DNA of 64,000 bases from Mycolicibacterium insubricum. Lineage in GTDB: Bacteria > Actinomycetota > Actinomycetes > Mycobacteriales > Mycobacteriaceae. The notes under the pieces were generated by a model. That model saw only the letters and a list, made by a program, of their open reading frames with translations. It was not told where the DNA came from and searched no databases. Positions 1 through 10,076 of this stretch are shown here, one piece after another. The DNA lies in NCBI RefSeq assembly GCF_010731615.1, contig NZ_AP022618.1:620001-684000 (forward strand). The letters are read 5' to 3'. Numbering within the stretch: the first letter of the stretch is position 1; every line of letters begins with the position of its first letter. The translations under genes were made by a program, and so were the position numbers.

Positions 1-108
1 GAGGGCTGGGTGCGTGTGGAAGTCCCCACGGCGAAGGATCGCCGCGGAAACCCGATGGTCGTGAAGCTCAACGGCACGGTCGAGCCGTACTTCCGCTCGG
101 CGGAATAG
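1..108 (+). CDS. DUF3297 family protein, C-terminal fragment
   Basis: The last 35 codons of a gene that begins before the window, ending at TAG 106-108. The visible residues (EGWVRV, DRRGNPM, KLNGTVEPYF) resemble the C-terminal end of the small DUF3297 family. No function is established for that family. The next gene starts 44 nt downstream on the same strand, so co-transcription is possible but not shown. Confidence 0.7.
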   Translation, partial: EGWVRVEVPTAKDRRGNPMVVKLNGTVEPYFRSAE

Positions 109-152
109 CCGGCGCGTTCGACACCAACCCCGGCGTCGAGTACACAAAGGAG

Positions 153-827
153 ATGCCGGAGCCAACCTCTGACGTCTGGGAAGTCCTGTCCACCGCGCGC
201 TCCATCCGCCGCTACACCGATGACCCGGTTGACGACGAGACACTGAATCGTTGCCTGGAGGCGGCGACTTGGGCGCCCAACGGGGCCAACGGCCAGTTGT
301 GGCGGTTCATCGTGCTCGATGCGCCGGAGCAGCGGGCTGCGGTTGCCGAGTGCGCGAAGATCGCCCTGCAGACGATCGAACCCGTCTACGGCATGACCCG
401 GCCCGCCGCCGACGATCAGAGTCGGTCGGCGCGCAATAACCGGGCCACCTATGAGTTGCATGACCGGGCCGGTGAGCGCACGTCGGTGCTGTTCACCGCC
501 TTCAAGACCGAGTTCGCTTCGGAATACTTGCAGGCCGGCTCGCTCTACCCGGCGATGCAGAACTTCTACCTGGCCGCACGAGCTCAGGGTCTGGGTGCGT
601 GCTTCACCGGTTGGGCGGCTTACGGCGGCGAGTCGATCCTGCGCGAATCGGTCGGGATTCCCGACGAATGGTTCCTGGCCGGGCACATCGTGGTGGGTTG
701 GCCGCGCGGGCATCATGGCCCGGTGCGGCGCCGCCCGATCTCCGACGTGGTGTTCCGCAATCGGTGGGATCCCGAGCGCGCCGACATCCTGTACGGCCGC
801 GGTGCCCGGTCCCGCGGGGGTAGCTGA
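153..827 (+). CDS. Nitroreductase family protein (FMN-dependent)
   Basis: A 224-aa protein with the nitroreductase opening RSIRRY (residues 17-22), then AATWAPNGANGQLWRF (38-53), the usual FMN-binding and dimer segment. GLGACFTG near residue 150 and the HIVVGWP segment are also typical. These enzymes use NAD(P)H and FMN to reduce nitro groups, quinones or enones; the substrate cannot be read from sequence. The chosen ATG has an AAAGGAG immediately before it, which is unusually close spacing, and there is no better in-frame start. Length is normal for the family. Confident family, unknown substrate. Confidence 0.85.
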   Translation: MPEPTSDVWEVLSTARSIRRYTDDPVDDETLNRCLEAATWAPNGANGQLWRFIVLDAPEQRAAVAECAKIALQTIEPVYGMTRPAADDQSRSARNNRATYELHDRAGERTSVLFTAFKTEFASEYLQAGSLYPAMQNFYLAARAQGLGACFTGWAAYGGESILRESVGIPDEWFLAGHIVVGWPRGHHGPVRRRPISDVVFRNRWDPERADILYGRGARSRGGS

Positions 828-925
828 GCTGAAGCGTAGGCGTAGGCGTCGGCGTCGTGCACGGTGAGGAGCGGCGAGTGCAGGCCACCCCGCGGGACAC
901 CTCGTGGCCACGAACCACCGCCGCG

Positions 926-1147
926 TCAATCGCCGAGTTGGCCCTCGAACTCGCCGAGTTGGCGCCGCAGCTCGGCCAGCCGCTCGGAGGCCGGGAGAGT
1001 CTGCTCGATGTGGGGACCGTACCCGTTGCACTCGTGGGTGCCCATACAGGCGCAGCCGGCGCCGTCAACGCTGCTGAAGGCTTTCGACTGAAGTGCTCGA
1101 ATCAGGTCGGGCATATTGTTCAGCGCGACCGGTCTTTCTTCGTTCAT
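926..1147 (-). CDS. Short Cys-containing peptide, candidate RiPP precursor 2
   Basis: A 73-aa product and the last gene of the four-gene minus-strand operon. It starts 3 nt after the stop of the helical-repeat gene, with a GGGAG ribosome site inside the end of that gene. Residues 6-10 are PVALN, followed by DLIRALQ (14-20) and then CACMGTHEC (32-40, Cys 32, 34, 40). The C-terminal third is a charged helix (ERLAELRRQLGEFEGQ). The PVALN block sits at the same residue numbers as in the 95-aa peptide gene upstream, and the CxCMGx3C pattern is shared. That is the arrangement expected of precursor peptides with a common leader. Inference: substrate of the radical SAM protein. Alternatively a small metal-binding protein. 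Confidence 0.7.
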   Translation of the reverse strand: MNEERPVALNNMPDLIRALQSKAFSSVDGAGCACMGTHECNGYGPHIEQTLPASERLAELRRQLGEFEGQLGD

Positions 1148-1150
1148 TGT

Positions 1151-2962
1151 TCAGACTCCCTGTCGTGGTTGTTGCTGAGTGCTAACCCCCGCCGTGACCG
1201 CAGATTTACGGGACATCTCGCCGCGGACGAGTTCGACGGCGGTGATCCATGCATCGGTGCCCAGCCTGCGCGCCAACGTCTGCAGTCTGGGCAGCTGGGC
1301 CGCGCACAGGTCGGGGTTGTTCTGGGCGAGCTGGGAGACTGCCAGTAAGAGGCGATCGTGGAACTCGTCGTCGACGGCTTCGATCGCCGACGACGCGGGA
1401 GGATAAAGCGGCGCGAGAACGTCGATCACCCGACCGAACTCGCCCTCGTCGAAATAGAACTGGCCGAGTGCACGGCGGATCAGCTCGCCATGATGGTCGG
1501 CCGTGGTCAATCTGAGCGCCATTTCCAGCTTCCTTCGTGCGCCAGCCCGATCATTGAAGCGGCCGGAGAGCAACTTGGCGGTGTTGACGCCGAGCAGCGC
1601 GTACGCCCATCGACCCAGGACCGGTGCGGCTTTCGCGAGTTGCTCGGCAAGTTGCTCGGCCCGCGTCTCAAGCACGAGTGCGGCCTCGTTCTTGCCCTCG
1701 TGGTAGTCGACCAACGCCAGGCCGTTCAACATCGCAATGTGGACCCGCAGTCTCTCGATGTCGTCATGCACATCGGCGAGGCCACCTAGTCCCTGCTCAT
1801 ACAGGTGTCGAGCGTGTGCGAGGAACCGTGGATGCCGCTGCACCGCATAGGCATTGGCCAGGTCTGCTGTCAGTTGGGACTTCTCGCCCGGGGCGCTGGC
1901 GAGTCGTCGAGCACATCCGAAGTGAAACACTGCTGTGGCGCGGGCGACTCTTGCCGGACGAAGGTGCGGGGCCAGCCGGGCCGCGCTGATGTGCGCCGAA
2001 ATGGCTCGTTCCCGTGCCCGGTCGTCGCTGTTGTGGGCGGGCGAGCAGGCCCGCGCGAGCGCGGCGCAATGTTGTTGCAACGACGGCTGACCCACGATGC
2101 GGTACCCGGCGAGAAGCGCCCCGTGCTGTCGCAGCAAGCCCGATCTATCAGCACCGAGTTGCGGTAGATGTGCGCGGCGCAGATAGCCCCAGCCATCGGG
2201 TGGCCATGCTGCGAATAGCGCTGTGGCATTGCGTCGCTGATCGGCCACGTCGAGTCGGCCCCACAGCCTCCGGCGGGTCCGGGCGCTCAGTCGAAGCCAT
2301 GGCTCACCACTCGGTCCCGGTATCGCGAGCGAGAAGGCCATATCGTCGCGAAGACCGAGGGCGACCACTGCGTCGAGGGGTGCACCGATCTGGGAGGCGG
2401 CGAGACAGTTCAACGCTTCGGTGCTCCGCGGATCCAGCCCGGTCGGAACAACTGTCGGACGGGTCGGTACCGCCTCCGTCGGGGTGGTGTGCCTTTTCAG
2501 AAAATCGTTGCCGGCCAGAACTGCCGGTCCGCCGACGCAGGCGACGGTGAAGCCGGTCTCCTCGGTGAACCTTGCCAGCCGTGTCACGAAGGTGTGCAGC
2601 AGACCCTCGGCGTCAGCAGGCAGCACGAGCGCGAGGCCATACCCATATCCCAGCTCCGCGATCGCACGTGCCGCCGCGTGCACCACGACTCGGGCCTCGG
2701 ACTGGTCGATGTTCTCCGGCGCGTCGTCACGCTGTGGCTCGGCCGCGTCGCGGGAGGAGTGGGCGAGCTCATCCCATCGTGGAGCGACGGCTCGGGTGGT
2801 CGCCCGCAGTAGCGCCGTCGACTGTCGACGATCCGCCGCGTCCAGGGCATCCAAAACAACCGGGTAGGGGGCCGCGCAACTCGGCGAGGGGTCACCCAGC
2901 CAGTCCAAGGATGGAAACGTCCGCTGCCAATCGGCCGGACGAGCTGACCAAAGGATGGGCAC
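1151..2962 (-). CDS. 603-aa helical-repeat (TPR-like) protein of the radical SAM operon
   Basis: Not recognised as a named family. It starts at GTG 14 nt after the first peptide gene; no strong ribosome site is visible, so translation may be coupled. Residues about 100-150 contain YGYGLALVLPADAEG and a hydrophobic strand TVACVGGPAVLAG, which suggests an N-terminal alpha/beta part. The C-terminal half (about 330-590) is alpha-helical with TPR-like spacing (AHARHLYEQGLGGL, NGLALVDYHEGKNEAALVLETRAEQLAEQL, ALGQFYFDEGEFGRVIDVLAPLY). No Walker A, transmembrane or signal sequence is seen. Its place between two peptide genes suggests a scaffold or partner in peptide recognition, but that is inference. 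Confidence 0.7.
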   Translation of the reverse strand: MPILWSARPADWQRTFPSLDWLGDPSPSCAAPYPVVLDALDAADRRQSTALLRATTRAVAPRWDELAHSSRDAAEPQRDDAPENIDQSEARVVVHAAARAIAELGYGYGLALVLPADAEGLLHTFVTRLARFTEETGFTVACVGGPAVLAGNDFLKRHTTPTEAVPTRPTVVPTGLDPRSTEALNCLAASQIGAPLDAVVALGLRDDMAFSLAIPGPSGEPWLRLSARTRRRLWGRLDVADQRRNATALFAAWPPDGWGYLRRAHLPQLGADRSGLLRQHGALLAGYRIVGQPSLQQHCAALARACSPAHNSDDRARERAISAHISAARLAPHLRPARVARATAVFHFGCARRLASAPGEKSQLTADLANAYAVQRHPRFLAHARHLYEQGLGGLADVHDDIERLRVHIAMLNGLALVDYHEGKNEAALVLETRAEQLAEQLAKAAPVLGRWAYALLGVNTAKLLSGRFNDRAGARRKLEMALRLTTADHHGELIRRALGQFYFDEGEFGRVIDVLAPLYPPASSAIEAVDDEFHDRLLLAVSQLAQNNPDLCAAQLPRLQTLARRLGTDAWITAVELVRGEMSRKSAVTAGVSTQQQPRQGV

Positions 2963-2976
2963 GACGCACTGCGCCG

Positions 2977-3264
2977 TCAGTCGGGTTGCGCGCTCGGCGC
3001 GGGGTCGCTCGCCAATTCCTGTTCAGCCTCTTCGAGCTGATGCTGGAGGTCGCGAATCTGCTGACGTGTCAGTTCAATTCGATCGGCCAGGCTCATCTTC
3101 GTCTGATCCAACGGGGTGGTCCGGTTCGTACAGGAGAACTGTCCCATGCAGAGGCAGTCATCGGGTGCTTCCAGGGCCATGATCTGTTGGTAGACGGTAT
3201 TCCTCTGCAACATGCGGAACAGGTCATTGAATTCGTTGAGCGCGACGGGTTCTGGCTCTGTCAT
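2977..3264 (-). CDS. Short Cys-containing peptide, candidate RiPP precursor 1
   Basis: A 95-aa product whose ATG lies 1 nt after the radical SAM stop codon. Its ribosome site AAGGGA lies inside the end of that gene, so translation is probably coupled. It shows PVALN at residues 6-10, DLFRMLQ (14-20) and CLCMGQFSC (37-45, Cys 37, 39, 45). A predicted amphipathic helix LADRIELTRQQIRDLQHQL follows at about 59-77. N-terminal block and Cys pattern match the 73-aa peptide gene downstream, while the segments between differ. Reading: leader plus modified core, with the radical SAM protein as likely enzyme. The long C-terminal helix is unusual for a classical core at the C-terminus. Confidence 0.75.
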   Translation of the reverse strand: MTEPEPVALNEFNDLFRMLQRNTVYQQIMALEAPDDCLCMGQFSCTNRTTPLDQTKMSLADRIELTRQQIRDLQHQLEEAEQELASDPAPSAQPD

Positions 3265-3265
3265 G

Positions 3266-4777
3266 TCATTCCCTTGTCATCGTGGCGGTACGGCCGCCGG
3301 TTACTTCGACGATCGGTAAGCGGTGGACGTGTGGTGGGCGATTGATGGCCGAGCCCAGCGCGGCAGCCTCGATTGCGGTGTAGCGATCCGCCAAGCTGCC
3401 GGGGAAATAGGACTGAAAGTCTTCGCATGCCGCCGCAAAGATGGTGTCATGGTTCGCGCGCGCATGATTGGCGCAACCCGATGTGTGGATCAATGCGTAT
3501 GGGCAGCGGGAGCATTGTTCGACGGCACCGGGAAACCGGGACAGCCAGGCGGGCGCGTTGTCGTCGTCGAGCCGCAGCACACCGTTGTGATAATCGCCGA
3601 CCCGGCGGTCTTTGATGCCGATTTCCTCCCAGCAGGCGTACACGTCGCCGTGCGGATCGAACATCAACATCCCGGTTTCGGCAGAGCAGTGTGCGACCCG
3701 CTGGAACGGATACTCCTCGGAGAGCGCCCGTCCGAGCACACCGTCCGCGTAGCCTTCGTAACTGCGCACGCATCCTCCGCCGGATTGGTCCGTAATCGAA
3801 AGCAGCTGTGCGTGAGAGACCAGGGACTCGTGTGTGCTCTCTCCGGTGACCACGGCGGCGTGCGCGGAGAACGACGAATGACCACTCCATCCGCGCAACG
3901 CGAAGAAGTCGTCGAGCAACTCGACCTGGTCGACGTTGCTCGAATCCACATTGATGCGGGCGCTGACGCGCGAGCCGGCTGACAGAGCCAAATCGATGTT
4001 GTCCGCGATCCGGTCGAACGATCGGCGAATCCCTGGCCCGATCCGCCGTCGATCATGTACGTCGGGCATGCCGTCGAGCGTTATCTGGAGGTCGGTGATG
4101 CCGTCACGGCCCATCAGATCGGTGAATGCGTCGAGTTCCACGCCGTTGGTGATCGCCCACAGGGCGGCACCTCGACGACGGGCCTGCTCGACGATGTATG
4201 CCACAACCGGCCGCGTCGCCCGGGTGAGCGGTTCGCCACCGAACAGGCCGACTCGACGCAGCGGACTGCGTTGATGACCCGGTGCCGGGTCATCAACGGC
4301 CAGCATCGACAGTTCCCGGGCCAGCGAGCCCGGCTCAGTGAACGCGTCGATCACACGAAAGGCGTCGTCGACTCGGGCTTCGTCCATCATCGACGCATAG
4401 ATGCCGCGGCCGGCATGCATGTCGTGAGACTGAAAACAGTAGGGACAGCGAAGATTACAGGTGTAGGCGGGCACGAAGACAAAACTCGGTTGGCTGGACG
4501 CGAGATCCGATTGATGAATAGCGGTCGCAACGTTCACCATGAGTTCGCGCTCTTGTTCTGCCGACAGGTCGGTTGTGTATCCACGCGCTTCGAGGTGTTT
4601 GCCCGTTGCGTCCAGCGGTGACCACGGTGGACGGGTCACCTCTGCGCCGCGGTGTTCGAGCAGGTAGGACCCCGTGGCCGCGGACACTTTGTCGAGGCTG
4701 CCGTTGAGGCCATGCATGAGAATGTAGAAGCGCTCGTCGGGGAGTTGAGCGCCGATGATATAGCTGCTAACTCTCAT
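3266..4777 (-). CDS. Radical SAM/SPASM peptide-maturase-like protein
   Basis: A 503-aa protein. The radical SAM cluster motif is CNLRCPYC (Cys 107, 111, 114) and GGEP lies at 180-183, as in the SAM-binding fold. The C-terminal region holds a SPASM-like Cys set (364, 382, 422, 425, 435, 451, including CSRC and HTSGC) expected to bind auxiliary [4Fe-4S] clusters. The N-terminal 50 residues (SSYIIGAQLPDERFYILMHG) resemble the start of peptide-modifying SPASM enzymes. The ATG at 4777 is chosen because it has an AGGGGG ribosome site; upstream in-frame extension is Arg/Gly/Pro-rich and not protein-like. First gene of the operon. Known relatives make Cys thioether, C-C or other crosslinks; the reaction here is unknown. 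Confidence 0.88.
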   Translation of the reverse strand: MRVSSYIIGAQLPDERFYILMHGLNGSLDKVSAATGSYLLEHRGAEVTRPPWSPLDATGKHLEARGYTTDLSAEQERELMVNVATAIHQSDLASSQPSFVFVPAYTCNLRCPYCFQSHDMHAGRGIYASMMDEARVDDAFRVIDAFTEPGSLARELSMLAVDDPAPGHQRSPLRRVGLFGGEPLTRATRPVVAYIVEQARRRGAALWAITNGVELDAFTDLMGRDGITDLQITLDGMPDVHDRRRIGPGIRRSFDRIADNIDLALSAGSRVSARINVDSSNVDQVELLDDFFALRGWSGHSSFSAHAAVVTGESTHESLVSHAQLLSITDQSGGGCVRSYEGYADGVLGRALSEEYPFQRVAHCSAETGMLMFDPHGDVYACWEEIGIKDRRVGDYHNGVLRLDDDNAPAWLSRFPGAVEQCSRCPYALIHTSGCANHARANHDTIFAAACEDFQSYFPGSLADRYTAIEAAALGSAINRPPHVHRLPIVEVTGGRTATMTRE

Positions 4778-4831
4778 GCGACCCCCTGGCCACTGCAGTC
4801 GTCCCCGCAAAATCCGAAGTCCGACCCAAGC

Positions 4832-4837
4832 ACTATA
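4832..4837 (-). promoter_or_regulatory. Possible -10 box of the radical SAM operon
   Basis: On the minus strand TATAGT lies about 55 nt before the radical SAM start in a locally AT-rich stretch. No convincing -35 is visible. Weak evidence. Confidence 0.3.
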
Positions 4838-4845
4838 GCTATTCG

Positions 4846-4971
4846 CTAGGCGACAGGGGATCGAATGAGGCCCCCGCATTCTTCGACCAGCTCGGTCCGG
4901 CCCAGGCCGTCGATCGGTCCGACGACGCCGGCCCTGACCCGGGATGCCTGCTGAACCCACAGGAGGCGCAT
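4846..4971 (-). CDS. Possible 41-aa small protein or gene remnant
   Basis: A minus-strand frame from ATG 4971 to TAG 4846-4848 upstream of the radical SAM gene. The product reads MRLLWVQQASRVRAGVVGPI and continues with DGLGRTELVEECGG. It looks protein-like, but it has no good ribosome site and only one Cys. A stop lies eight codons upstream in the same frame. It could be a remnant of a regulator, a small leader gene or chance. Confidence 0.22.
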   Translation of the reverse strand: MRLLWVQQASRVRAGVVGPIDGLGRTELVEECGGLIRSPVA

Positions 4972-5196
4972 AAGGCGCTCGGAGTGCTATCGGTCAGGTT
5001 GATGACCACCGATTGCTCTACTCAGAGCGCATACTATGGGTATGCCGACAACATCGCCGCCGTCGTCATTTCGGAGGCGGAGATCAGCCGTCGGGCGCTG
5101 CCCATTCTCGTGTTTGTCACCCGCAACGTCGGAGACGTCCAACGCGCGGACATGCGTCTGCTCAACCCTGGAAGCCCGCTCCCTGACGTACGGCGG

Positions 5197-6120
5197 CTAC
5201 GGCGACAGAATCTGCGTGATGCCGTCGCGATAGGTGGTGGCCCTGAACTCCGGGAATCGGGAGGCGAACTTGGACGAATCGAAGATGTTGTCCACGCCGT
5301 ACCGCGGCATGAGCTCTGAGACTTCCTTCGCCTTCTTGTTGACGAGGCTCGCCAGCGTGATGACCGCGAGCGGGATTGTGCTGTAAGGGATCTGTCGGCC
5401 GGTAACCTCGGCGGCGATCGCGATGATCTCGCGGTAGGTGAGGCGGTTCTGATCGATCGGCAGGTGCCAGGTCTGGCCGTAGGCGTCCGGGGTGTTGCCG
5501 ATCAGGCCCATGGCGCGGCTGGCGTCGGGAGTCCAGATCAGACTCCGCTTGGTATCGGCGCTGACGGGAACCAGAGGCCGCTTGCCGTCCTTGATTCGGT
5601 CGAAGACGACAGAATTGGTCAGGCTCTGCGTCTTGCCCGGGCCGTAGAACTCGGGGGCACGAGCGATCACCGCTTGGATGCGGCCCGCGTCCATCTCGGC
5701 CTGCAGCAGCGTCGCGATCTGCGCGCGAACGGCAGACTTGCGACCGCGCGGTTCGAAGGGGGTCTTCCCCTCGACCTGCGGGGTGGCGGTACGGGGATAC
5801 ATGTAGGTGTTGTCGAAGAACACCAGTTTGGCCCCGTGATTGCGGACCGCGGCGATGACGCTCTCCATCATTGGCGGGAACTGCGCCTCCCACAGCGCCG
5901 AGTCCATCGGCAGCCCGGCCGTCAGGTAGACGATGTCGCTGCCCGCGACGGCGCGGTCGGTCGCCTCCGGATCGGTCAGATCGGCCTTGACGAGTTCGTC
6001 GGTGTCGTGGTGCTTGCTGGGGTTGCGCCCGACCAGCCGGATGTCACGGGTCACGTTGTCGTGCAGGTAGCGCGCCAAACCCTCGCCGATCTGCCCGTTG
6101 GCACCCAGTACGGTCTGCAT
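5197..6120 (-). CDS. NAD-dependent epimerase/dehydratase family protein
   Basis: A 307-aa protein of the extended or atypical SDR (NAD(P)-binding Rossmann) type. It opens with MQTVLGANGQIGEGLARYL, a glycine-rich dinucleotide motif G-x-x-G-x-x-G. It continues with LTDPEATDRAVAGSDIVYLTAGLP and a catalytic-region FFDNTYMYPR, then GPGKTQS and a C-terminal substrate part. The start at ATG 6120 has a clear GGGGA ribosome site 7 nt upstream; longer in-frame extension lacks domain features. Substrate is unknown. It lies upstream of the radical SAM operon on the same strand, but 420 bp away. Confidence 0.82.
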   Translation of the reverse strand: MQTVLGANGQIGEGLARYLHDNVTRDIRLVGRNPSKHHDTDELVKADLTDPEATDRAVAGSDIVYLTAGLPMDSALWEAQFPPMMESVIAAVRNHGAKLVFFDNTYMYPRTATPQVEGKTPFEPRGRKSAVRAQIATLLQAEMDAGRIQAVIARAPEFYGPGKTQSLTNSVVFDRIKDGKRPLVPVSADTKRSLIWTPDASRAMGLIGNTPDAYGQTWHLPIDQNRLTYREIIAIAAEVTGRQIPYSTIPLAVITLASLVNKKAKEVSELMPRYGVDNIFDSSKFASRFPEFRATTYRDGITQILSP

Positions 6121-6357
6121 CGATTCCCCTATCGCCACTCGTTCAATGGTTGAAGTACATAGCATCCCGCTACGCACCCGTTTCCGTGGCGAGCCAGACT
6201 GCTCGTGGCCACGGCTTCCTCGCGGTGACCGCAATCGGAATACCTCAGCACGCACGCAGCGTCTCCATTCCAGGATAACCCGAGCTCGGGGGCTTGCGGC
6301 AAGGCCCGGCTGGTGCTGCACACTGGCCCGTCCCACCAGTACGGCAGGAGGATTCGG

Positions 6358-6780
6358 GTGTCCGAAGCGCTGGATGAAGGGCCGTTCTTCCACGGCACGA
6401 TCGCAAACCTGGGGGTCGGCGAGTTCCTCACCGCGGGCCGCCCGTCGAACTATCGCCCGGCGATCGTGATGAACCACATCTACTTCACTGCTCGCGTCGA
6501 CGGAGCCGGCCTTGCCGCGGAGATCGCCGCGGAACTCGCACCCGGTGACACCGTCCCGAGGGTCTATCAGGTGGAGCCCACCGGGGCCTTCGAGAACGAT
6601 CCGAACGTGACCGACAAGAAGTTCCCCGGCAACCCCACGCGTTCTTACCGCAGTGACGCCCCGTTGCGGATCGTCGGTGAGATCACCGAGTGGACGAGAC
6701 TGAGGCCCGAGGAACTGCAGTCCTGGCGGGAACGTCTCTCGGAGCTGCTGGCCGGCGAGCGCGGGGTGATCATCAACTGA
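6358..6780 (+). CDS. arr: Rifampin ADP-ribosyltransferase (Arr)
   Basis: A 140-aa enzyme that inactivates rifamycins by transferring ADP-ribose from NAD+ to the drug's ansa chain. The sequence follows the Arr family along its whole length: FFHGT (His12), SNYRPAIVMNHIYFTA (Tyr42), VEPTGAFENDPNVTDKKF, FPGNPTRSYRS, PLRIVGEITEW and the C-terminal GVIIN. The family's catalytic His, Tyr and Asp are all present. GTG 6358 is chosen because an AGGAGG lies 6 nt before it; M. smegmatis Arr has similar length. Chromosomal arr is common in rapid growers, so transfer need not be invoked. Confidence 0.95.
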   Translation: MSEALDEGPFFHGTIANLGVGEFLTAGRPSNYRPAIVMNHIYFTARVDGAGLAAEIAAELAPGDTVPRVYQVEPTGAFENDPNVTDKKFPGNPTRSYRSDAPLRIVGEITEWTRLRPEELQSWRERLSELLAGERGVIIN

Positions 6781-6869
6781 GCTCGACGGGAGGTGCCCGG
6801 CGTCTGGACCGGAAACGCGACCGCGTGACGCACCTGCGCGATGTCGGTGATGGAGACGGCGCCGCGCCA

Positions 6870-6875
6870 TACACT
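6870..6875 (+). promoter_or_regulatory. Leaderless-type -10 box for the decapeptide-repeat gene
   Basis: TACACT, then 6 nt, then GTG 6882. The spacing fits a transcript starting at or near the start codon; no Shine-Dalgarno is present. Confidence 0.45.
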
Positions 6876-6881
6876 CGCCGT

Positions 6882-7601
6882 GTGAACATCGTCGGGTTTG
6901 TTGCCGGCATCGCGCTCGGCCCGGTTCGGGCCGGCGTCGCGGTGGCAGATGCCGGGCTCAACGCTGCGGTCGTGGCGCTTGGTGTGGTCAAGCAATCCGT
7001 CGGTGTGGACGGCACGACGGCAGGCGGATCGATCACCGAGCTGGTCCCTCTACGAGGGGCGTTGGTCGGTGCGAACCGCGTCGCCGAATTCACCGAGAGG
7101 GATCGTGCGCTCGGGCGTGCCCTGGCCCCGGGCGGCCCGGCCGACCAGCTGATGCGCCCGGGTGGGGTCGTCGACCTGCTGACCTCGCCGGGCGGCCTGC
7201 TCGATCGGTTGGGCGACGGAGGCACGTCATCGCTGGAGCGGATTTTGACACCCGGTGGGCTCGCGGATCGGCTGATCGCCGAAGAAGGCCCGTTGGAGCG
7301 GTTGCTTGCCGAGGACGGAATTGTCGAGCGGATATTCGCCGAGGAAGGCGTCATCGACAAGCTACTGGCCAAGAACGGGCCACTGGACCAGCTCACCGAT
7401 GCCGCAGAGATTCTCAGCAAACTGCAGCCCGCGTTCGAGACCTTGATGCCCACCGCGGAGACCCTGGAGTCCGCTGTCGACAGCCTCAACAGGATGGTGG
7501 CGACGCTCGGTGGCTTCGCCGAGCGCATTCCTCGGCGCCGGTCGTCGCGGTCGGCCGTGCGCGCAAAACGCAGCGCGGACTTGCCCGCCATTGAGGAGTG
7601 A
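6882..7601 (+). CDS. Hypothetical protein with decapeptide repeats
   Basis: A 239-aa protein with no enzyme motif I can name. Residues 1-60 are Ala/Val/Gly-rich and could be membrane-associated (VGFVAGIALGPVRAGVAVAD). Residues 81-170 are near-regular ten-residue repeats of the type PGG(L/V)xDRL, changing to (A/E)E(D/E)G(P/I/V)xERL. A helix and a basic tail (PRRRSSRSAVRAKRS) follow. GTG 6882 is chosen because a TANNNT box ends 6 nt upstream; longer frame upstream overlaps arr and is Arg-rich. Function unknown; the repeat could form an elongated helical stack. Confidence 0.65.
   Translation: MNIVGFVAGIALGPVRAGVAVADAGLNAAVVALGVVKQSVGVDGTTAGGSITELVPLRGALVGANRVAEFTERDRALGRALAPGGPADQLMRPGGVVDLLTSPGGLLDRLGDGGTSSLERILTPGGLADRLIAEEGPLERLLAEDGIVERIFAEEGVIDKLLAKNGPLDQLTDAAEILSKLQPAFETLMPTAETLESAVDSLNRMVATLGGFAERIPRRRSSRSAVRAKRSADLPAIEE
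7122..7391 (+). repeat. Nine decapeptide-coding repeat units (30 bp period)
   Basis: Degenerate 30-bp coding repeats. Examples are MRPGGVVDLL, TSPGGLLDRL, LIAEEGPLER, LLAEDGIVER, IFAEEGVIDK and LLAKNGPLDQ. DNA-level identity is moderate, so the repeat is old. Confidence 0.7.
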
Positions 7602-7689
7602 TCCGGGCCCGCTACCGATAGCCGCGACGGGCGAGGATGAAATGTCCCGCCCAGTGGTCGATGGCAAGGCCGGCGCGGATCATGATTGC

Positions 7690-7695
7690 TAGCCT
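7690..7695 (+). promoter_or_regulatory. Leaderless-type -10 box for the PadR gene
   Basis: TAGCCT, then 6 nt, then GTG 7702, with no Shine-Dalgarno. Confidence 0.4.
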
Positions 7696-7701
7696 TGCCG
7701 C

Positions 7702-8364
7702 GTGGAGGAGCCCGGTGAGTCGGCACTGCCGTCGCTGTCGGCGACGGGGTGGGCGCTGCTGGGCATGCTGTCCTACGAGAAAGAGCTCTCGGGCTACGAC
7801 ATCCGCAAGTGGATCCACTGGAGCATGCGGTTCTTCTACGGCAGTCCGGCGTTCAGTCAGATCTACGCGGAGCTGAAGAAGCTGGAGGCGCTGGGGTTGC
7901 TGACCTCTCGCGTCGACGGCGGCGGCGCACGGAATCGCCGGCTGTACAAGATCACCGAGAGCGGCCTGACCGCCGTCGCGCGCTGGGCGCGGGAGACGCC
8001 GGTCGAGCCGCCGTCCCTCAAGCATCCGGCCATCCTGCGGATCACCCTGGGGCACCTCAGCGACCCCGCCGCGCTCAAGGCCATGCTGCGGGAGCACCTC
8101 GCTTATGTCGACGAGATGCAGCGCGACGCCGAGAAGGAAGTGCGCTCGGCCGACGCGGACCCGGCCTGGGCGTACGCCAAGATCGCCCTGAACTGGTCGG
8201 AGCGGTACTACCGGGCCGAGCGGCAGCTGACGCTGCAGCTGATCGAGGACCTCGAGGACGCCGAGGCCAGGTTCCCGGCGGTGGGCGACGGCGGGAAGGT
8301 TCCGTGGCCGGATCCGGCCTACTGGTATGAGATCGAGCGCAAGGCCGACGCCGAAGAAGACTGA
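7702..8364 (+). CDS. PadR family transcriptional regulator
   Basis: A 220-aa winged-helix regulator. Residues 15-90 carry the PadR fold signature: ALLGMLSYEKELSGYDIRK, SPAFSQIYAELKKLEALGLL and RRLYKITESGL. A long C-terminal dimerisation region (AKIALNWSERYYRAERQL) follows. Such proteins usually repress nearby genes and release DNA on binding an aromatic or other small ligand. It converges on the KstD-like gene, 5 nt apart. The dyad at 10116-10137, between the two steroid-type genes, has ATGT/ACAT ends like PadR operators, so it is a candidate target (inference). Confidence 0.88.
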   Translation: MEEPGESALPSLSATGWALLGMLSYEKELSGYDIRKWIHWSMRFFYGSPAFSQIYAELKKLEALGLLTSRVDGGGARNRRLYKITESGLTAVARWARETPVEPPSLKHPAILRITLGHLSDPAALKAMLREHLAYVDEMQRDAEKEVRSADADPAWAYAKIALNWSERYYRAERQLTLQLIEDLEDAEARFPAVGDGGKVPWPDPAYWYEIERKADAEED

Positions 8365-8369
8365 CGCGG

Positions 8370-10076
8370 CTACGTCTTCCCGGCCGCATCGCGGGCCGCG
8401 ATGTATCCGTAAACCAGTCCCTGGGCGACCGTCGCTCCCGCGCCGGGGTACTTGTCGCCGAACGCATTTGCCGCGGTGTTGCCGATCGCATACAGCCCGG
8501 CGATGGCGCTGCCGTCGGAGCGCAGCACCCGAGCCCGGTCGTCGGCGCGCAGACCGCCGCAGGTGCCGAGGTCGCTGAGCACCATCTTGACCGCATAGAA
8601 CGGGCCCCTGACCAGTGGGCGCAGATTCGGGTTGGGGGTGACGGTCGGATCGCCGTAGTACCGGTCGTAGGCGCTGCGTCCCCGTCCGAAGTCGGGGTCT
8701 TCGCCGGCGAAAGCGCTTTCGTTGAATCGGGTTGCGGTGATGGAGAATTCGTCATTCGGAACACGCATCCTGTCGGCCAACTCGGTGAAGCTTTCTGCGC
8801 GAACGGCGATCCCGGCGGCGTACCAGTCCTTGGGGATCGGCATTCGCGGAAACAGCTCGGCGGCAAAGACATAACTGTTCCGGTACTGCTGGTCGAAGAC
8901 GATCCACATGGTCTGTACCGGGGTTCCGGCTGCTTCCAGCGCCAGGAGGCGCTGTCCGAAGCTCATGTAGTCGGTGGACTCGTTGGCAAACCGGCGGCCG
9001 TGCTGGTCGACGATGAAGGAACCCGGCAGGGATCGTTCGGCCAGCATGACGGCCGGTGCGCTTCCGGGCATCGGCGCCACGGCGGGGAACCACCAGGACT
9101 GGTCCATCAACGCGGTATCGGCTCCGGCGGCCTGCCCGGCGCGAATGGCGTCACCGGTGTTGGAAGTGGCACCGAGGCTGAAGTTGGCTGCTAGCGAGGG
9201 GGATTGGAACTGCCACCGCATGTCCATGTTGTGGTCGAAGCCGCCGGCGGCGAGCACCACACCGCGGCGGGCAGTGACGGTGAGTCGGGTCCCGTCGTGC
9301 TCCACTACCGCACCGGTGACACCACGGTCATCGCTGATCAGCTCGATCAGCGAGGTGTTCAGCCAGATCGGGATTCCGGCGCGCAGCGCTCCGGCGAACA
9401 GCCCCGCTGCCAGCGCTTGACCGCCGGCGGCGTAGCGACGCCCCAGCGCCAGGCCACCGACGCCCTGAGCGAGTCTCTTGATGAACGTGGGTAAGCCCTT
9501 ACGCGGCACCCGGCTGACCAGGTTCATCCACCGGTAGTCCGCACCCGTCGTCGGCATCGGCAGTGCGGCTTCCATCAGGCCCGGTCGCAGATCCTTCCGG
9601 TACGGACCCAACACGGAGGTGTCCAGCGGCCGACACTCACAGGTTCGCCCGGCCGCCGATCCGCCGGGCCGCTCCGGGTGGTAGTCGGCGTAGTCCCGGG
9701 CCCAGAACAGTTTCATCGGCGTCGTCCGGCGCAGCATCTCCACGGTCGCGGCCACGTGGTCCAGATATGCCGTCGACCGCGAGGCCGGAGCAGATTCGCC
9801 GACGACGTCCTCGAGGTAGCTGCGGGCCCGATCGGCCGGATCGAGTCCGCCGCACTCGGCGATCACCGGGCTGGCGGGCAACCACAGTGCGCCGCCGGAG
9901 CGGGCCGTCGACCCGCCCACGTACTCCGACTTCTCCACCACCAGCACCGAAAGACCGAGTTCGCGGGCCGTCAGCGCGGCCGCGAGGCCGGTGCCCGATC
10001 CGACGACCACCAGGTCGACTTCGGTGTCGACGATCGCCTGGCCCGACGGGATGGTGCGGTGGCTGGTAGCGGTCAC
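8370..10076 (-). CDS. FAD-binding 3-ketosteroid delta1-dehydrogenase-like protein
   Basis: A 568-aa flavoprotein of the KstD/fumarate-reductase-like family. FAD-binding GSGTGLAAAL is at residues 26-35, followed by VVEKSEYVGGSTARSGGALW. Near the C-terminus DLGTCGGLRAD, LYAIGNTAANAFGDKYPGAGAT and GYIAARDAAG match the KstD ending. KstD introduces the C1-C2 double bond in the steroid A ring, one of two steps that open ring B. The start is GTG. It is divergent from a KshA-like gene, the other half of that reaction pair, which supports a steroid-like substrate. Specificity may differ from 4-androstenedione. Confidence 0.78.
   Translation of the reverse strand: MTATSHRTIPSGQAIVDTEVDLVVVGSGTGLAAALTARELGLSVLVVEKSEYVGGSTARSGGALWLPASPVIAECGGLDPADRARSYLEDVVGESAPASRSTAYLDHVAATVEMLRRTTPMKLFWARDYADYHPERPGGSAAGRTCECRPLDTSVLGPYRKDLRPGLMEAALPMPTTGADYRWMNLVSRVPRKGLPTFIKRLAQGVGGLALGRRYAAGGQALAAGLFAGALRAGIPIWLNTSLIELISDDRGVTGAVVEHDGTRLTVTARRGVVLAAGGFDHNMDMRWQFQSPSLAANFSLGATSNTGDAIRAGQAAGADTALMDQSWWFPAVAPMPGSAPAVMLAERSLPGSFIVDQHGRRFANESTDYMSFGQRLLALEAAGTPVQTMWIVFDQQYRNSYVFAAELFPRMPIPKDWYAAGIAVRAESFTELADRMRVPNDEFSITATRFNESAFAGEDPDFGRGRSAYDRYYGDPTVTPNPNLRPLVRGPFYAVKMVLSDLGTCGGLRADDRARVLRSDGSAIAGLYAIGNTAANAFGDKYPGAGATVAQGLVYGYIAARDAAGKT

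Follow-up and report, generated by a model that had tools for sequence, protein, structure and literature searches.

A conserved radical SAM, Cys-peptide and TPR-superhelix operon in Mycolicibacterium insubricum as a candidate RiPP-like maturation system

The DNA analyzed here (the window) is a stretch of 64,000 nucleotides from Mycolicibacterium insubricum (NZ_AP022618.1, positions 620,001 to 684,000), which carries a four-gene operon on its minus strand. The operon encodes, in order, a radical S-adenosylmethionine enzyme with a SPASM domain (rSAM), a small Cys-containing protein (peptide 1), a helical-repeat protein and a second small Cys-containing protein (peptide 2), with intergenic gaps of 1, 14, and 3 nt (Table 1). 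The four open reading frames (ORFs) had been described in a first-pass annotation made from the DNA letters alone, and their places, lengths, common strand, and spacing were all confirmed. The purine-rich ribosome sites which that annotation had placed inside the preceding genes were also found, AAGGGA within the rSAM gene for peptide 1 and AGGGAG at the end of the helical gene for peptide 2. A 5'-extended rSAM ORF of 564 aa is possible, and homologues begin at the shared MRxS of the 503-aa form. The genes make up a genuine rSAM peptide system that is conserved and falls outside the curated families against which it was tested; its chemistry and role are putative.

Table 1. Positions in the window of the operon genes and of the features discussed within them
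Feature	Position	Strand	Basis
Radical SAM/SPASM peptide maturase (rSAM), 503 aa, ATG start	3266..4777	-	ORF list
Predicted RiPP recognition element (RRE), residues 1-95, three strands and three helices	4493..4777	-	Structure model, CteB match
Codon of His431, SPASM Aux II ligand position	3485..3487	-	CX2CX5HX3C; CteB alignment
Precursor peptide / mini-protein 1 (candidate), 95 aa	2977..3264	-	ORF; homologues P0125-P0128, L018, L116; alignment A3
VALN leader motif of peptide 1, residues 7-10	3235..3246	-	V7, L9, and N10 invariant in 9/9 (A3)
Putative modified segment CLCMGQFSC, peptide 1 residues 37-45	3130..3156	-	C37, C39, and G41 invariant in 9/9 (A3)
Helical-repeat (TPR superhelix) partner, 603 aa, GTG start	1151..2962	-	ORF
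Precursor peptide / mini-protein 2 (candidate), 73 aa, with VALN and CACMGTHEC	926..1147	-	ORF

The recurrence of the rSAM, Cys peptide, and helical gene as a trio was investigated across fetched loci containing 98 different rSAM rows. Every genome with an rSAM at least 43% identical to that of the window carried all three genes (4/4, window included), and these genomes fall in two phyla. The count is a lower bound of at least four carriers, since the scan of genome contigs probably missed close relatives. Besides the window, the carriers were Streptoalloteichus tenebrarius (L018), a second Streptoalloteichus (read from the longer locus L116), and Sphingomonas colocasiae (L019), and in each of them a gene for a Cys protein of 91-96 aa comes immediately behind the rSAM gene, with the helical gene next in line. 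The co-occurrence that the first-pass annotation had proposed to look for among rSAM homologues was thus found, and a candidate precursor gene is linked to its modifying enzyme in all four genomes, as is expected of a ribosomally synthesized and post-translationally modified peptide (RiPP). With the window's helical protein as the query, matches were obtained at E 2e-131 in L018, 3e-124 in L116, and 3e-11 in L019; a genome search gave E 4e-131 for L018 and 5e-10 for L019. A profile found no further locus at E 10 or better, although it was trained on these same sequences and many of the loci are short. The surroundings of the trio differ: an AsnC-type regulator and an MFS gene lie upstream on the opposite strand in L018, a DUF6461 gene and a TetR-type regulator flank L116, and an FMN reductase and an SBF transporter flank L019. 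Since the flanking genes differ, and since the 15 flanking proteins scanned at the three non-window loci showed no peptidase, C39, or ABC domain, the trio is the conserved unit. Between the two Streptoalloteichus species, dN (nonsynonymous divergence) was below dS (synonymous divergence) for all three genes (peptide, 0.127 and 0.311; rSAM, 0.105 and 0.346; helical gene, 0.124 and 0.448, respectively).

The small proteins share two motifs, V-x-L-N near the N-terminus and C-X(1-2)-C-X-G, which were invariant in the nine peptides aligned (A3). This retains the conserved leader and Cys motif that had been anticipated, in a looser form than the PVALN and CxCMG originally written. Peptides 1 and 2 are 37% identical, and a phmmer search with peptide 1 (12,632 ORFs from 142 loci) matched peptide 2 at E about 5.4e-6 to 5.9e-6 and the Streptoalloteichus peptides at E 4.3e-7 and 2.1e-5. 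As peptide 1 alone finds these, the peptide ORFs are not chance reading frames. The Sphingomonas peptide gave no match to peptide 1 alone and was identified by position and motifs only. Each window peptide contains three Cys, whereas the Sphingomonas peptide contains six (3 or 6 across the trio peptides). The five trio peptides carry 33-51 residues after the last Cys, compared with 4-14 in six peptides from wider rSAM relatives that we picked from the loci; the window peptides end in ...SAQPD and ...GQLGD. When ten peptides of both kinds were aligned, only M1 and one Cys were invariant. The proposed layout with two candidate precursors was seen in the window, but the second peptide gene was seen solely in this genome, and the stretches searched near the trio in L018, L116, and L019 held no second peptide with both motifs. 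One homologue of peptide 1 (P0126) bears the source name 'RNase adaptor protein for sRNA GlmZ degradation', which is likely a wrong annotation caused by a coiled-coil resemblance to RapZ. An assignment of peptide 1 itself as RapZ was rejected (21.9 bits, cut-off 244) as coiled-coil similarity. No weight was given to a 703-aa gene model (P0122) which fuses peptide 1 and the helical protein in one frame, either a natural fusion or a sequence error.

The rSAM protein was matched by PF04055 (39.4 bits, cut-off 29.5) and by the SPASM family TIGR04085 (36.3 bits, cut-off 27). Homologues were compared in two alignments that exclude fragments and near-copies, A1 (the window and 47 of 120 listed homologues) and A2 (the window and 44 of 120). 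The radical SAM motif CX3CX2C (C107, C111, C114) was present in all 48 rows of A1. The structure model is predicted to share its whole-length fold, comprising an RRE, a radical SAM core, and a SPASM domain, with the SCIFF maturase CteB (TIGR03974; PDB 5wgg, 5why). An N-terminal RRE fold is evident in the model from its secondary structure and the full-length match to CteB, whose own N-terminal domain is an RRE (PMC6231123). The enzyme nevertheless scored only 50.7 bits against a TIGR03974 cut-off of 425. Its best NCBIfam match among those listed, and that of a Microcystis relative (L021), was TIGR04463, to which neither belongs (100.5 and 140.7 bits, cut-off 525). The mycofactocin family of MftC was likewise far from reached (29.5 bits, cut-off 265). 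A viperin-type similarity from PADLOC was weak and was judged superfamily noise.

The SPASM domain departs from the complete seven-Cys motif CX9-15GX4C-CX2CX5CX3C-C, having six Cys (C364, C382, C422, C425, C435, C451) and His431 in the middle of CX5CX3C. Position 431 was His in 39 and Cys in 9 of the 48 rows of A1, while the nine other Cys were invariant, and His431 aligns with the corresponding Cys of CteB. According to PMC5715301, the equivalent residue is a ligand of auxiliary cluster II (Aux II) in both anSME (Cys326) and PqqE (Asp319). The non-Cys residue is a point of likeness to PqqE, and as PqqE is a founding SPASM member, His431 does not exclude a SPASM enzyme. Substitutes for Cys that include His are described for auxiliary cluster I (Aux I), not Aux II, in the portion of PMC5491770 available. 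The alignments suggest that His431 may be a ligand of the Aux II cluster, and the lone Cys (C364) ahead of GX4C may reflect an open Aux I site like that of CteB, which also has a Cys-containing precursor adjacent. In a tree of 66 rows (rooted by midpoint only, with one row lacking a readable motif and one plasmid row), 42 of the 43 His rows formed one group with support of 98/90. The lone His row outside this group was the plasmid row, an rSAM relative on a Rhodococcus qingshengii plasmid (L121, 5785-7221). A literature survey, which was not exhaustive, found no mention of the trio or of a His at Aux II.

The helical partner, called TPR-like in the first-pass annotation, was indeed modelled as helix-turn-helix repeats forming a tetratricopeptide repeat (TPR) superhelix. 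The well-modelled region spans about residues 341-590; residues 1-290 were poorly predicted, the N-terminal half having a low predicted local distance difference test score (pLDDT). The model was nearest LGN, with Rap and NprR among the matches listed. Several of these entries are peptide complexes by their titles, and the likeness is one of predicted fold only. No Pfam NTPase match was found in the protein, and no NCBIfam family was assigned to the TPR proteins among the matches listed.

Taken together, the recurrence of the trio in 4/4 genomes, the predicted CteB-like fold with its RRE, the invariant motifs, the longer peptide tails, and dN below dS lead us to favor, as the probable interpretation, a RiPP-like radical SAM maturation operon of new architecture whose product acts intracellularly. 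In this scheme, the RRE fused to the SPASM enzyme would capture each small protein by its N-terminal VxLN strand. The rSAM would then form a radical-derived crosslink within the internal Cys segment, a Cys thioether being the likeliest, with Aux I as the substrate site and an Aux II cluster having His431 as its fourth ligand. The C-terminal amphipathic helix would not be part of a secreted core, and may instead dock the mini-protein, once modified, on its co-translated partner, the TPR superhelix protein, which would be a chaperone, scaffold, or receptor. Such docking is the reason for placing the action of the product inside the cell. The earlier proposal of a single RiPP-like system (an rSAM maturase, Cys precursors, and a helical partner) is thereby partly supported, through the pairing of all three in 4/4 genomes. 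Compared with CteB and SCIFF, the peptides here have an internal Cys segment and a long C-terminal tail, His replaces Cys at one Aux II ligand, and a TPR partner is present. SCIFF and ranthipeptide precursors carry six Cys in ~45 residues, in contrast to three in each window peptide. PqqE forms a C-C bond in PqqA, and its RRE is a separate protein, PqqD. The window system differs in its fused RRE and Cys-containing candidate precursors.

The operon could alternatively be a conflict or signalling module following the logic of FxSxx-type systems, with the TPR protein a STAND remnant without its ATPase. This overlaps with the RiPP-like interpretation, the role of the product being what differs, and we regard it as rather doubtful. 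In PMC7159879, actinobacterial peptide-processing systems link SPASM rSAMs to AP-ATPases with C-terminal TPRs, and the FxSxx-COOH systems resemble the window operon in linking a SPASM rSAM, a small variable protein, and a TPR-bearing partner. The STAND-TPR structure 6mfv ranked second in Foldseek (TM 0.31/0.29), and the rare, patchy occurrence described below also suits such a module. Yet the likeness to STAND depends on the poorly modelled N-terminal half, and no FxSxx C-terminus, zincin peptidase gene, AP-ATPase, vWA protein, other NTPase, TIR, or metallopeptidase was identified in the operon. No PADLOC family matched the TPR protein or the peptides, and the lack of an NCBIfam family for the TPR proteins points the same way.

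A conventional rSAM RiPP, in which host proteases cut out a Cys core, unlinked or neighbouring transporters export it as a bacteriocin or signal, and the TPR protein serves in immunity or regulation, appears unlikely. Several wider relatives do have C-terminal Cys cores and M50-like genes, with a C39/ABC gene in Nostoc, and a mobile accessory cluster would suit both the sporadic occurrence (1/297 genomes of the same genus) and the lower GC content (peptide 1, 57.6%; rSAM, 62.4%; TPR gene, 66.3%; window, 68.5%). MFS or SBF transporter genes ~2 kb from the trio in L018 and L019 also weigh against an intracellular product. On the other hand, the 15 flanking proteins scanned had no peptidase, C39, or ABC domain, domain scans bore out the first-pass statement that the operon itself has no peptidase or transporter, all five trio peptides carry a tail after the Cys segment, and the TPR gene stands behind a peptide gene in 4/4 trio loci. 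A reading of the small proteins as metal-binding or redox partners of the rSAM (such as donors of electrons or clusters), left unmodified while the true substrate lies elsewhere, is very improbable: metal could be bound by CxCMGx3C and by the Cys-rich segment in Sphingomonas, and the number of Cys varies, but the enzyme has a full-length maturase fold bearing an RRE, the VxLN leader is invariant, and Cys peptides adjoin several wider rSAM relatives.

Beyond the probable RiPP-like operon, we tentatively raise the possibility of a novel class of rSAM-modified intracellular mini-proteins. These coiled-coil proteins would be crosslinked in their internal Cys segment by a SPASM clade with a His-ligated Aux II, would never be excised or exported, and might act as a rigidified ligand or subunit of a TPR receptor, in a self-contained signalling or conflict module derived from an exporting RiPP ancestor. 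If this is true, radical SAM maturation is not confined to exported peptides and also acts on a segment inside a small protein that stays intact and is paired with a TPR protein. A natural clade with His at the position occupied by Cys in anSME and CteB and by Asp in PqqE offers a direct test of the role of Aux II in SPASM enzymes, and the Streptoalloteichus and Sphingomonas orthologues open the system to study in E. coli.

At lower identity (28-36%), rSAMs adjoin short Cys peptides with an LN-type leader (L113/L117, L025, L026, L029, L036) in Acidobacteriota-type genomes, Chloroflexales, Paenibacillus, and Melioribacteraceae. Small proteins beside the rSAM of Microcystis (L021) and Nostoc (L022) were noted by inspection only, and among the 45 rows listed many more distant loci had no such Cys peptide. 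Seven proteins near the wider relatives were scanned: five gave M50 matches (E 7e-5 to 0.03, all below the Pfam cut-off), one was the C39/ABC gene of Nostoc, and one had no match (L121). The window type resembles a RiPP system in which the Cys segment became internal and a tail and a TPR partner were gained; this order of events is inferred. In an Acidobacteriota-type genome, a related rSAM is followed by two near-identical short Cys peptides in tandem (L117:8054-8242 and L117:8328-8522), and in Paenibacillus piscarius (L026:9403-9600 onward) one related rSAM is followed by three different short Cys peptides. An Azospirillaceae metagenome-assembled genome (MAG; L048) contains, ~46 nt behind a distant rSAM (ORF 1405-2697), a 108-aa ORF in which a pattern of Cys-Pro-x-Val-Cys type recurs, possibly a precursor with repeated cores.

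Carriers of the system are few and scattered, a pattern that fits an accessory cluster. The window's own genome was the only positive in the genus sample given above; the class gave 3/394 at E 1e-40 (own and two distant) and the order 2/397 at E 1e-30 (own and one relative at 33% identity). Weaker rSAM matches (E 1e-6 to 2e-4), found in 14 further relatives and once more in the window's own genome, were attributed to other radical SAM enzymes. Both Streptoalloteichus genomes were positive (2/2), and these were also the two with the TPR gene among 63 genomes of the family. The Sphingomonas genome was the only carrier of five in its genus. The phylum of an Acidobacteria MAG yielded 3/297, all distant and with Cys at the Aux II position. 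A Streptomyces sample gave 0/343 with no positive control; named Streptomyces homologues exist, so the sample may have missed carriers. No close rSAM relative was found on viral contigs, where two loci had partial, 25-28% matches. Plasmids gave 24 records with rSAM relatives, all below 60% identity (at most 31% in the best 20 of 24), and no TPR homologue. Two of these loci on Rhodococcus plasmids (L120, L121) showed no TPR match. A 38-aa ORF ending in MCSCFSFGG follows the rSAM on the Rhodococcus rhodochrous plasmid (L120:7274-7390) and at a locus from the window's family (L122:6324-6440), possibly a separate small RiPP system. L120 has a weak M50 match, and L121 has neither an M50 match nor the 38-aa Cys ORF.

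Around the operon, no sigma-70-like promoter or intrinsic terminator was detected between positions 750 and 5300 (chance expectation 0.6 and 1.9), and an Rfam scan of positions 1-9000 gave no match. An NAD-dependent epimerase family ORF (6120-5197) lies 419 nt upstream on the same strand, and the other side is bordered by a plus-strand gene of the nitroreductase family. In an empty-site comparison, the nitroreductase gene was found at E 1e-60 in 17/61 genomes (own included); the 1.5 kb flanks of these loci held no close epimerase orthologue, with weak 24% matches at two loci. A Rifampin ADP-ribosyltransferase family gene (6313-6780, plus strand; NF033144, 135.6 bits, cut-off 130) was also identified near the operon, outside its limits.

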